This document shows, one piece after another, positions 7,622 through 12,949 of a stretch of 13,533 bases of DNA. The stretch covers positions 1 to 13,533 of the forward strand of contig JAATVK010000049.1 in NCBI GenBank assembly GCA_014523485.1. Reading direction: 5' to 3'. Numbering within the stretch: position 1 is the first letter of the stretch; each line of letters starts with the position of its first letter. The position numbers and the translations under genes were made by a program. This stretch comes from Nitrososphaerales archaeon TH5894 (GTDB lineage Archaea; Thermoproteota; Nitrososphaeria; Nitrososphaerales; Nitrososphaeraceae). The notes under the pieces are model-generated. The model was not told the origin of the DNA. It saw only the letters and a program-made list of their open reading frames with translations, and ran no database searches.

Positions 7622-8401
7622 GTGACTAAAGCTACCCCTATCAATTTTCATGCAGCTCTATCATTAGAATATGTTGATAATGGAGGTGAAAAAAAAAAAT
7701 TCTTAGTAATTTCTGATCTTCACCTAGGATCCGAAACAGATCTAATAAAAAAGGGTATAACAATTGATTCACAGAGTGTCTCAAGAGATTTACTAAAAGA
7801 AATTGATGCATTAAAAGCATTACATTCCTTTAATGCCATTATTATTTTGGGAGATTTAAAAAGCTCCATCACCCATATTACAAAAAATGAATGGGAAACA
7901 ATACCTATTTTTCTTAAAGAATTATCTTTAGATATGGATATATTTTTAATTCCAGGAAACCATGATGCGAATATAAATTTATTGGTACCAGATTCGGTAA
8001 TAGTATGTAATCCTAGTGGATTAATTATTGATGATATATTATTAATTCATGGACACACAATCCCTCAAAAAACTCAATTTAATATAAACAAAATTATTAT
8101 GGGTCATATTCATCCTATTTTTATTAATTCCAATAGCGTTCTTCATGGTAAAAGATTATGGATATATCTAAAGGTAAAAAAAGAATCTATTTTTGGATTA
8201 AAAACGAAAGGTATAATTGAAATAATAATTATTCCTACTTTTAATAAATATTTTTATTCTTTAGGGTATCATAAAGAGTCTAGATCTATATCACCACTAA
8301 TTAGACAAATAATCAAAAATGATGCGATCCTTTCAGGATCCTTGTTCACGTTAGAGGGATCCCTTATAGGAGAAACTCAAGAAATAAAAAATTTATTCTA
8401 A
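7622..8401 (+). CDS. Calcineurin-like metallophosphoesterase (COG1407-like)
   Basis: A 259-residue predicted two-metal phosphoesterase. The five metal-binding blocks are present in order: SDLHLG (31-36, Asp32 and His34), GDLKSS (77-82, Asp78), GNHD (112-115, Asn113 and His114), HGHT (143-146) and GHIHP (161-165). This order, and the GDLK wording, match the archaeal ICC-like COG1407 family; its usual GDxKH is GDLKS here. Members have been found near Lhr-type helicases and are suspected of a role in nucleic-acid metabolism, but the substrate is unknown. The start is GTG at 7622. An internal GGAGGTGA at 7683-7690 is not followed by a start codon and simply encodes Gly-Gly-Glu. The last nine bases overlap the end of carB on the opposite strand. 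Confidence 0.87.
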   Translation: MTKATPINFHAALSLEYVDNGGEKKKFLVISDLHLGSETDLIKKGITIDSQSVSRDLLKEIDALKALHSFNAIIILGDLKSSITHITKNEWETIPIFLKELSLDMDIFLIPGNHDANINLLVPDSVIVCNPSGLIIDDILLIHGHTIPQKTQFNINKIIMGHIHPIFINSNSVLHGKRLWIYLKVKKESIFGLKTKGIIEIIIIPTFNKYFYSLGYHKESRSISPLIRQIIKNDAILSGSLFTLEGSLIGETQEIKNLF

Positions 8402-11400
8402 GTTGGTTATTGAATCATTTATTTTTAAATATTTTTTAAGCGGTTCAATAGTAGGGGAATTTGTCTGTAGCCATTGGAGAGTTTTTATAAATGCCGAAGA
8501 GGCCTCCAATGTGGTCATTACAGGAATACCCATTTCTACAGCTTTTCTTCTTATATAGTATTCATCATTTAACATATTCAGGTATTTTTCCATCGTGGAA
8601 GTAGACGGAATATTGATAATAAAATCTATTTTATGTTGATACAAAAGATCAATAATATTTGGCTTTCTTTCGGGTTCGTTTATTTTATAAACTCTTTGAA
8701 TATCTTTAATTCCATTCATTTCTAAGAAATCAGCAGTGTGTTCGGTAGCCATGATTTTATAATCCATTGATGTCATGAGAGATATAACTGGTAGTAATTT
8801 TTCCTTATTTATCTGTCCTCCTATTGTAATTAATGAAGTTCCTTTTTTTGGTAAAGAATAACCTGCAGCTATGTAAGATTTACTTAGTGCGTCGTAAAAA
8901 CTAGTTCCAAAACAAGCTACTTCCCCCGTAGAATGCATTTCAACACCAAGAACTATATCCGCACCTTCTAATTGCATGAATGAAAATTGAGGAACTTTTA
9001 TAGCGAATCCAGTTGTTTTCAGCCATAGTTCTTCATGGATATTAGGTAAAGGTTTATTCAACATTGCTCTTGCGGATAAGTCGATAAGATTTATGCGTAC
9101 AAATTTTGAAACAAAAGGCATAGATCTCGATGCTCTTATATTGGCTTCTATCACCAACACTTCCTCATTTTTAACTATGAATTGAATATTAAAAGGTCCT
9201 GATACATTCAATGCTCTTACGATCTTATTAGAATAATCTGTTATAGTATCCATTATATTTCTTGTTAATCCCCATGGAGGTAAAGACATCATTGCATCTC
9301 CTGAATGAATACCAGCATTATCTATATGTTCTATTATAGCGCCAATAATTACCTTATCTTTGGACCCTACACCATCTACTTCCACTTCAGATGCATCTTG
9401 GAAAAATTTACTGATTACTATTGGATGATCTGGACTTACCACAGTTGCATTCTCTATAAATTTTTCTAACTGCTTATCATCCCACACAACTTTCATAGCC
9501 GCCCCACTCAGAACATAAGAAGGTCTTACCAATACTGGATACTGTACTGATTCAGAAAACATCTTTGCCTCATTAAGATTCGAAAATTTTTTCCAGGGAG
9601 GTTGAGCAATATTTAAAGAATCTAAAAGTTTGGAAAACTTTTCTCGATCTTCTGCTCTATCAACATCATAACTAGAGGTTCCTATTATCTTTGCACCATT
9701 CTTTGCCAAATTCTGTGTCAAATTGTTAGCAGTTTGACCACCTACACATGTGATTATACCATCTGATTTCTCTTTTTCATAGATATCCAGAACCCTTTCT
9801 AATGTAATCTCTTCAAAGTATAAACGATCTGAAATATCAAAATCTGTCGAAACGGTTTCTGGATTACAATTTATTACTGAGACAGAGTTGATGTCATTAT
9901 TTTTTAAACCCATAACCATATTTACTGTTCCCCAATCAAATTCAACACTACTTCCAATTCGATATGGACCTGCACCCAATACTATTGCATTTTTACCTTT
10001 GTTCTTAATTTTGACATCGTCGTACTGTCCACCATATGTAAGATATAGATAATTTGTCTGTGCTGGCCATTCAGCAGCAAGGGTATCAATTTGTTTTATT
10101 ACTGGTTCAATTCCAAATGTCTTCCTAATATGTCTCACCTGATATTCATCTAGATTGAAATAATAAGCTAATTGTTTATCGGAAAATCCCAAGCTTTTTG
10201 CTTCTCTTATCATCTTTTTATGAAAATTATTTGACGAATTTTTTAATTTTTGTTCCATTTCTATGATATTTTTTATTTTGTTTAAAAACCATGGATCGAT
10301 ACTAGATAATTCATTTATTCTTTCAATTGTCATTCCAAAATCAATTGCTTTAACTACATCCGTCAAAATGTTGTCATTAGGATTTAAAAGAGAATATTCT
10401 ATATTTTCTAATTCTAGTATCACTTTTTCTTCTGATCTATTATTGCCTACAATTCCAATTTTCCCAATATCGCACATTCTAACTGCTTTTTGTATTGCCT
10501 CCTCAAATGTTCGTCCTATAGCCATTACTTCACCGACAGATTTCATAGTAGTTCCAAGTCTAGTATTCACTTTTTCAAATTTATTAAAGTCCCATCGTGG
10601 CATTTTCACTACAATATAATCTAAAGATGGTTCAAACAAAGCTGTAGTTTTTTTTGTCACTTTGTTTATTAATTCATCTAAGGTATAACCAAGTCCCAAT
10701 TTGGCAGCCATGTAAGCTAAAGGATAACCAGTTGCTTTACTGGCTAAAGCAGATGATCTTGATAGTCTAGCATTGATTTCTATTGCGCAATATTTTTCAG
10801 AAGAAGGTTCCAGACCAAATTGAATATTACATTCACCTATTATACCACATTCATTTGTCGCCCACATAGCCGCTGAACGGAGCATATGATATTCATAATT
10901 ATTAAGTGTCTGTGACGGAGCTACTACTATATTATCACCAGTATGCACTTTCATACCAAGTACATTTTCCATATTACAAACTATTATATTATTTCCTTTG
11001 TGATCTCGCATAACCTCATATTCTATTTGTTTCCAATGACCAACATATTTTTCAATAAGTACTTGTTCACTCATACTTAGAGCAATACCACGATGTACAA
11101 TTTCTTGAAGCTCGTATTCATTGTGTGCTACTCCTCCTCCTTTTCCTCCCAATGTATATGCAACTCTTACAATAACTGGATAACCAATATTTTTGGCAAC
11201 TCTTATTGCTTCTTCTACAGAATAGGCTGGTGCGCTAGATAATACAGGAACATTACATTTCTGCATTGCTTCTTTAAAAAGCTGTCTATTTTCTGTTCTC
11301 TCTATACCTTCGATAGGTGTACCCAGAACTTGAGTCCCATATTTATTTAGTATCCCTTCTTTGAATAAAGCCATTCCACAATTAAGTGCAGTTTGTCCAC

Positions 11401-11701
11401 CAAATGATAACATTATAGAATCAGGTCTTTCTATTTCCAATATTCTGGATACATATTCTTTAGTAATAGGCAATAGATATACGACATCAGAAAATCTAGT
11501 ATCTGTTTGAATAGTAGCAATATTAGGATTAATTAGAACAGTCTTTACCTCATCTTCTTTTAGAGCTTTTAGACATTGAGAACCAGAGTAGTCAAATTAG
11601 CGGCTAGAATCCTAACTTTCGCCTGCTTCTCCGATTTTGATTGCACCACTACCCAATACCACAACTTTTTTTATAGTTTCTCTTCTTGGAATTTTTTTCA
11701 C
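8393..11701 (-). CDS. carB: Carbamoyl-phosphate synthase large subunit, interrupted by a 21-nt putative intron
   Basis: Makes carbamoyl phosphate from bicarbonate, ammonia (from CarA) and two ATP, for pyrimidine and arginine synthesis. Two exons, 11701-11618 (28 codons from GTG) and 11596-8393, give 1095 residues, the usual length. Exon 1 reads KKVVVLGSGAIKIGEAGE and exon 2 continues FDYSGSQCLKAL; the 21 nt between them carry TAG and TAA in frame. Downstream are FGGQTALN (93-100), ATP-grasp TLGGKGGG (176-183), EINARLSRSS, the second-half GAGPYRIGSSVEFDW (569-583), CVGGQTANN (645-653), PSYVLSGAAM (720-729), EANIRASRSMPF (845-856) and an MGS-like regulatory domain from about 945. The GTG at 11701 lies 16 nt past the carA stop, with AAAGGT five nt before it as a possible ribosome site. 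A start inside exon 2 (for example TTG at 11473) would remove the first pre-ATP-grasp strand, so I reject it. Confidence 0.93.
11597..11617 (-). other. Putative 21-nt BHB (tRNA-type) intron in the carB mRNA
   Basis: Minus-strand insert between the Glu28 and Phe29 codons (phase 0). From 5' to 3': A (11617), GUUAG (11616-11612), loop GAUU (11611-11608), CUAGC (11607-11603), CGCU (11602-11599), AA (11598-11597). GUUAG/CUAGC forms a 5-bp inner stem (one G-U). Exon GGCG (11623-11620) pairs with CGCU as the 4-bp central helix (one G-U). The 5' bulge is AA^A and the 3' bulge AA^U, so both boundaries fall after the second bulge base, as for archaeal tRNA-splicing endonuclease. The outer helix is imperfect: AGCA/UGACU with a bulged A, then GGAG/CUCU. 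Removal restores the conserved GEAGEFDYSGSQ. Two in-frame stops make read-through unlikely. Confidence 0.85.
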
Positions 11702-11717
11702 CCCTTACCTTTGATAT

Positions 11718-12949
11718 TTAAGTTTCTTTATTAGATAATTTTTCTCTCTTATTTAAATTAACGATTTCTTTAAATTTATCAAATACATAATTACAATCAT
11801 TAGGTCCTGGAGATGCTTCAGGATGAAATTGGACAGCAAGAATTGGTTTGTTATTATGAATTATACCTTCTATGGTATTATCGTCTGGATTATAAAACCA
11901 CGGTCGAAAATCTGTAGAAGTAAGAGTTCCAGGATCTATCCCATATCCATGATTCTGACTTGTTATATAAGATAAACTATTTTCTTTATTAATACATGAT
12001 TTATTTTGTCCTCTATGTCCGTATTTTAGTTTATAGGTATCTGCACCAGCAGACAATGCAAGTATTTGATTTCCTAAACATATTCCCAGAGTGGGTACAG
12101 ATGTATCTATAAGCTTTTTAGCTGTGTCTATTGTAGGTTTACATATTTTTGGATCCCCTGGTCCATTACTTATTATAACTCCTACAGGATTATAAGATAA
12201 GATTTTTTCATAAGTGGAATCCCATGGAACCTGAACAACTCGAAAGCCAATCTTTAATAAGTGTCTAATGATACTGAATTTAGTTCCCGTATCCAATAAA
12301 ACTAAAACATCCTTATCATTCTCACCATATATTTTTACATTATTAGAACTGACTAATGACATAAAATTTTTGGTATTATAATTTTCAACATTTATTATTT
12401 TCCTATAATCAATTTTATTTATTGGTTCATCAGATACTGTCAAAACTCCCATCATAACTCCTTTTTGACGAATTATTTTTGTTAGCTCTCTTGTGTCAAC
12501 ACCATATATCCCAGGTATTTTTTCTTCATACAACCATTCATCTAATGTCTTAACACAGTTCCAATGACTAGCCACATTCGATAAAGAATGAATAACGAGT
12601 CCTTTAGGTTGTATTTTTTCAGATTCAAAATATTTCGGTATTCCAAATTCATCTAAGATATTCTTGTCTGGTACACCATAATTTCCAATTAATGGATATG
12701 TCATACTCAATATTTGACCGCTATAGGAGGGATCTGTTAGGCTTTCTGTATATCCGACCATCCCTGTGTTAAATACGATTTCTCCTGCGGTTTGACTAGG
12801 ATAACCAAACCCAATTCCTGAAAAGGATTTGCCATTTTCTAGTAATAACTTTGCATAGAAACCAGTATATTTAGAATATAGTATTGGAATTTTTTATCTA
12901 GAATATTACTATAATAACAAAATTTAAGTTTTGCTAATGGTGTGTTCAT
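11718..12949 (-). CDS. carA: Carbamoyl-phosphate synthase small subunit; N-terminus split between frames
   Basis: Glutamine amidotransferase subunit that supplies ammonia to CarB. The conserved body reads AKLLLENGKSFSGIGFGYPS, then GEIVFNTGMVGYTESLTDPS, IGNYGVP, GVDTREL, and a class I amidotransferase domain: SNGPGDP, nucleophile Cys in LGICLGNQ (residue 228 counted from the Met at 12761), SQNHGYGID and QFHPEA with His313 and Glu315. The problem is the start. The body frame is open from 12893, but there is no ATG, GTG or TTG before the Met at 12761, which lies inside conserved sequence. The ATG at 12949, 11 nt past the upstream stop, encodes MNTPLAKL in another frame. Joining 12949-12925 to 12844-11718 gives MNTPLAKLILENGKSF and 383 residues, the expected length. 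The coordinates used here follow that reading; a non-standard ATT start at 12890 is the alternative. Confidence 0.75.
12845..12924 (-). other. Candidate second intron in carA (weaker than carB)
   Basis: An 80-nt, very AT-rich segment whose removal would join MNTPLAKL to ILENGKSF in frame. Exon AACU (12930-12927) can pair with AGUU (12850-12847) in a 4-bp central helix, all Watson-Crick, and the implied cuts fall in 3-nt bulges UA^A and AU^U. UUAG (12937-12934) and CUAG (12942 side of exon 2, 12842-12839) can add an outer helix, but across an internal loop. The inner helix is poor. This is therefore only a partial BHB-like structure, reported because the reading frame needs an explanation here. 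Confidence 0.3.

Follow-up and report, generated by a model that had tools for sequence, protein, structure and literature searches.

In the stretch of DNA analysed here (the window, 13,533 nucleotides from Nitrososphaerales archaeon TH5894), the gene carB, for an enzyme at the start of pyrimidine and arginine synthesis, has its coding sequence broken by 21 nucleotides (11617-11597, minus strand; AGTTAGGATTCTAGCCGCTAA) that very probably constitute a bulge-helix-bulge (BHB) intron of its mRNA, cut by the splicing endonuclease EndA and sealed by the ligase RtcB so that CarB is restored. This reading had been put forward in an earlier note on the same DNA, and as an account of splicing drawn from genome sequences it is supported by the occurrence of the insert in relatives, by compensatory changes in its predicted structure, by constraint on the flanking exon codons, and by the presence of EndA and RtcB genes. 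Comparison of related genomes also gives it a wider scope than it first had: the predicted intron is conserved across several families within one order.

The interrupted carB gene and its predicted fold

Between a GTG at 11701 and a stop at 8393, carB is open apart from the 21 nucleotides, which contain an in-frame TAG and TAA and fall between the Glu and Phe codons of the conserved GEAGE/FDYSG (Table 1). The reading frame confirmed this description, first made in the earlier note, and likewise its observation that the homologous second half of the protein (GSSVEFDW) is contiguous. Exon 2 alone matches the profile TIGR01369 over positions 25-1051 with 1376.9 bits; exon 1 supplies the first 24 positions, and the gene read across the insert covers positions 1-1051 with 1404 bits. 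The earlier note had allowed for a second intact carB elsewhere in the genome (2,356,306 bases in 281 contigs, 87.5% complete), where a profile search found one full-length copy and four other CarB-family matches of at most 51.8 bits each. ARAGORN found no tRNA in the window, and no Rfam family reached its gathering score there. A group I or II self-splicing intron was rejected on this absence of an Rfam match and on size, the 21 nt comparing with a catalytic core of some hundred nucleotides; an intein was rejected because the inserts, only 20-34 nt long among relatives, bring stops or frameshifts rather than an open, translated insertion.

Table 1. Features of the interrupted carB gene and of the predicted BHB structure in the window
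Feature	Position	Strand	Remarks
carB exon 1	11618..11701	-	28 codons, GTG...GGC GAA, ends GEAGE; predicted GTG start
Predicted BHB intron	11597..11617	-	21 nt, TAG and TAA in frame; same site in relatives
carB exon 2	8393..11596	-	TTT GAC TAC...; 1067 codons and stop; TIGR01369
Outer helix, 5' strand (exon 1)	11625..11633	-	columns 3-11 of alignment A2; 99.2% of cells paired
Central helix, 5' strand GGCG (exon 1)	11620..11623	-	central helix 95.6% of cells paired
5' bulge AA^A	11617..11619	-	5' cut predicted at 11618/11617
Inner stem, 5' strand GUUAG	11612..11616	-	3 of 4 counted pairs changed on both sides
Loop GAUU	11608..11611	-	from fold
Inner stem, 3' strand CUAGC	11603..11607	-	from fold and alignment count
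Central helix, 3' strand CGCU (intron)	11599..11602	-	from fold and alignment count
3' bulge AA^U	11596..11598	-	3' cut predicted at 11597/11596
Outer helix, 3' strand (exon 2)	11584..11593	-	columns 56-65 of alignment A2; interrupted by mismatches and bulges

Folding of the site returned most of the structure that the earlier note had drawn, namely the inner stem GUUAG/CUAGC with its loop GAUU, the central helix GGCG/CGCU and an imperfect outer helix, but not the 3' bulge of three nucleotides: at minimum energy four bases (AAUU) stay unpaired on that side, and a bulge of three requires the A that precedes GGCG to pair with the second exon-2 U, a pair that is not conserved. The folding energy does not stand out (z -1.61; an equal or better fold is reached by 9 of 200 shuffles) and is by itself weak evidence, so the case is carried by the comparison of genomes.

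Distribution among relatives and history of the predicted intron

A search of 400 genomes of the class with the TIGR01369 profile revealed stops inside many carB genes. When the letters of the site were read, 119 loci could be classified, 82 carrying the insert and 37 lacking it; beside these, one locus is cut by the end of its contig (L044), one was placed by hand (L120) and one that repeats the window was dropped (L036). A covariance model of the site matched 318 of the 400 genomes and divided them by E-value into 204 taken as carriers (at most 2.7e-18) and 114 taken as intronless (at least 2.9e-12), with a gap between the two groups and with agreement from the directly read sites, which are a subset of the 318; about half of the 400 genomes thus carry the insert. 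The window's own family has carriers in 57 of 62 genomes, one intronless locus (L018) and four genomes without a match. In the phylum, 134 of 398 genomes were matched, and outside the class the insert is absent, under strict filters, from all 60 matched genomes, where the site spans 47-48 nt; a diverged site could be missed among the 264 without a match. The best 80 of 229 related loci in named genomes, a set biased towards close relatives by the use of the window's own protein as query, comprise 73 carriers, 6 loci without the insert and 1 that is cut. Carriers occur among records named Nitrososphaera, Nitrosotenuis, Nitrosotalea, Nitrosarchaeum, Nitrosopumilus and Cenarchaeum, from which we take the class to be Nitrososphaeria. 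The insert has 21 nt in Candidatus Nitrosotenuis chungbukensis MY2 (L186) and 33 nt in L089 (genome G132). The earlier note had proposed looking for the insert in related genomes, and there it lies at a constant site, the codon boundary between GAR and TTY, with lengths of 20-34 nt. The loci of separate searches overlap in genomes, and distinct sequences were therefore used for the counts of structure and length given below.

This recurrence bears directly on whether the interruption is an assembly error or marks a pseudogene. The window does come from an incomplete draft in many contigs, yet interruptions at this site recur across many genera, in single-contig as well as named genomes, which rules out the assembly error that the earlier note had kept in view, and the rest of carB is open over its whole length; the probability left to either is close to nil. 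Two relatives have stops in carB away from the insert site, with two further TAA codons at exon-2 residues 45 and 53 in one (L015, genome G269) and a single TAG at exon-2 residue 981 in the other (L080, genome G327).

On a quick CarB tree of 159 rows the intron state changes 11 times, compared with a mean of 28 when states are shuffled, and at least 7 changes are forced by well-supported branches. With the root not fixed, the history is probably one old gain in the lineage followed by repeated losses, and independent gains at the same site may be the alternative. No residue of the insert was seen in the 43 loci of intronless genes that were read, and such exact loss is, we infer, what back-copying of spliced mRNA into the genome would leave. 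One gene placed among carriers in the tree, L214, lacks the insert and keeps all of the BHB codons; together with L225 and L237, intronless genes that keep some of them, it looks as if the loss were recent. A 23-nt carB intron was also seen in a genome from another order of the class (G029, locus L252). We considered this as possible evidence of a more ancient origin and discounted it, its CarB standing on a long branch among carriers of family f4; the carrier state of this genome would fit gene transfer or a binning error.

Reading frame, pairing and exon codons at the predicted splice site

The 84 distinct introns, of 20-34 nt, represent all three length classes modulo 3. Forty-nine are not multiples of 3, each of the 35 that are contains an in-frame stop, and none is both frame-neutral and free of stops, so that in the window and its relatives alike the insert disrupts the coding sequence, and the conserved protein is recovered once it is taken out. 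If continuity of the protein is the only criterion, 12 of 100 distinct contexts have a single possible cut, 81 have three and 7 have four. In all 100 the BHB position is the unique best among these protein-keeping cuts, which bears out the earlier proposal that the register fitting the BHB rule also restores the protein.

These properties weigh against the insert being retained, with translation of CarB beginning within exon 2, or further upstream in another frame that stays open across the insert. Public gene calls do exactly this (P0058 and P0018, for example, read a 22-nt insert from another frame), and exon 2 without exon 1 still has its high profile score. Exon 1, however, keeps its frame in the carriers, with no stop in its last 20 codons in any of 121 distinct carrier exons, and its motif GSG.[IL]K[IV]GEAGE is intact in 120 of the 121 while third positions vary, a pattern hard to explain unless the exon is translated and joined; the presence of all three length classes and the in-frame stops of 21-nt inserts argue in the same direction, and we hold retention to be very unlikely. 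Somewhat less probable again is programmed translational bypassing, in which ribosomes would hop the insert with the aid of the hairpin. Phage T4 gene 60 is bypassed in this way between matched take-off and landing codons. A hairpin does sit in the carB gap, and hopping would yield an identical protein, but the last three bases of the insert equal the take-off codon in none of the 84 introns, and bypassing has no need of exon-intron pairing with 3-nt bulges at both borders.

Such pairing is a central part of the BHB structure, which was drawn from the fold in the window and the consensus, with an outer helix between the exons, a central helix between exon GGCG and the intron, and an inner stem within the intron, and was counted on two alignments, A1 (66 distinct sequences) and A2 (96). 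In A2, 98.2% of 1536 pair cells form standard pairs, and pairing drops to 16-54% when the partner is slid by 1-3 columns. Cells changed on both sides number 80 in A2 and 48 in A1, counts that are not independent events, the sequences being related, and that were reached by none of 500 shuffles in either case. Four pairs of A2 show double-sided change, a number reached by 11 of 500 shuffles; three lie in the inner stem, and most of the covariation is accordingly within the intron. The fourth is the only exon-intron double change, in L251, where GGC becomes GGT, silently, and its intron partner changes from G to A, and it provides one case of the compensating change in GGCG/CGCU that the earlier note had proposed looking for. 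The structure is thus kept by compensatory change, and its 3-nt bulges, 4-bp helix and cut after the second bulge base are present with some relaxation: G.A stands at the outermost central pair in 17 of the 96 sequences, the 3' bulge has 3-4 nt, and three distal outer pairs are lost in L073 and L078. Unconventional BHB motifs are reported, in the available text of PMC2738675, for most of the newly studied introns of cbf5.

A further trace of the helix is found in the exon codons, whose paired silent sites show almost no variation in carriers and vary freely in intronless genes. Among 81 carriers and 37 intronless genes, respectively, ATC is found in 77 and 6, GGA in 79 and 8, GGC in 80 and 6, TCC or TCT in 79 and 15, GAC in 74 and 16, and TAC in 75 and 11, whereas codons whose silent base is outside the counted pairs (GCN, the last GAR, TTY and GGN) vary in both groups alike. 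In the tree set, all four main codons are kept by 121 of 129 carriers compared with 1 of 30 intronless genes. Phylogenetically independent pairs never reverse the effect; they are few, and the result is not significant (median p 0.125, range 0.03-0.25).

Splicing machinery, precedents and gene calls

The genome encodes one RtcB and two EndA proteins, of 184 and 130 residues, that pass the TIGR00324 cut-off, the smaller one barely (61.5 versus 59.6). The PDB chains nearest to the larger EndA (2cv8, 3p1z and 3ajv) are named tRNA-splicing endonuclease, and we take them to be crenarchaeal, two-subunit enzymes. EndA leaves a 2',3'-cyclic phosphate and a 5'-hydroxyl, ends that RtcB can join. The carB transcript would be expected to fold into the BHB at the insert, an EndA of the two-subunit type would cut after the second base of each bulge, and RtcB would join GGCGAA to UUUGAC; the spliced mRNA would then give a CarB of 1095 residues and the unspliced mRNA a stub of 29. 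Cutting by EndA without joining, the BHB acting as a switch that destroys carB mRNA, is a further reading to be weighed, for the sequence evidence speaks to the BHB and not to ligation. The sole full-length carB found would in that case never be expressed intact, conservation extends to exon 1 and to the precise frame on both sides of the gap, and the genome has RtcB, all of which makes such a switch exceedingly improbable.

If carB is indeed spliced, its expression could be subject to a further dependence. Because unspliced mRNA cannot give CarB and the intron has long been conserved, CarB synthesis in much of the lineage might be gated by mRNA splicing, with the carbamoyl phosphate that feeds pyrimidine and arginine synthesis depending on EndA and RtcB, the enzymes of tRNA maturation, and with the intron retained for regulatory coupling of nucleotide synthesis to tRNA splicing. 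We consider this extended proposal doubtful, and a regulatory role for the intron is speculation.

The BHB introns of archaeal tRNA and rRNA have the same motif and the same predicted enzymes as the proposed carB intron, whose host RNA is an mRNA instead. According to the available text of the reports concerned, cbf5 was as of 2020 the only additional BHB intron reported in archaeal mRNA besides that in the 5'-UTR of HVO_1309 (PMC7714728), and introns in other archaeal protein genes were as of 2009 predicted and unconfirmed (PMC2738675). The cbf5 pre-mRNA introns, of Sulfolobales and Desulfurococcales, belong to another gene and another lineage, carB encoding a metabolic enzyme; the carB site is early in the coding sequence, unlike that of cbf5, and cbf5 splicing has cDNA proof whereas the carB intron is predicted from sequence (PMC2738675, available text). 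The HVO_1309 mRNA of Haloferax volcanii is likewise processed by the splicing endonuclease at BHB sites, but its intron, of 46 nt, is in the untranslated leader, and its removal, unlike that of the carB intron, joins no coding sequence (PMC7714728, available text). The earlier note knew of no described case in carB; we too found no paper on one among the matches listed in searches of the open literature, although an earlier mention is possible, and the available portions of PMC12397907 and PMC13149111 make no mention of it.

The carB intron would then be that of a second coding gene with a BHB intron, in a lineage that includes ammonia-oxidizing archaea and in 84 distinct versions, and splicing of a metabolic mRNA would be a stable trait of a large group. 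The introns would form a natural series of near-minimal BHB substrates, with recent losses beside carriers and with intronless relatives as controls, which would make it possible to test how archaeal mRNA introns are gained, lost and used.

The intron would also explain a wrong or shortened N-terminus in some public gene calls of the enzyme. Five such calls (P0058, P0018, P0019, P0011 and P0030) run through the intron and take the last part of exon 1 in an incorrect frame; P0058 bears the NCBI name carbamoyl-phosphate synthase large subunit, from a Nitrososphaeraceae archaeon. Others among the best 120 of 6709 matching database proteins (for example P0002, P0069 and P0080) bear the junction and were considered as products of spliced RNA, a use we set aside since intronless genes explain them equally well.

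A separate observation concerns carA (11718-12890, minus strand), which lies just upstream of carB and whose frame lacks ATG, GTG and TTG ahead of the conserved N-terminal part. At 12890 stands an ATT, and many relatives have ATT or ATA at this place behind a GAGGGT motif, which suggests a conserved non-canonical AUU/AUA start codon as a candidate for initiation of carA; one relative (L235) has ATG at the place of the ATT, and in some others a TTG or ATG occurs a few codons upstream.
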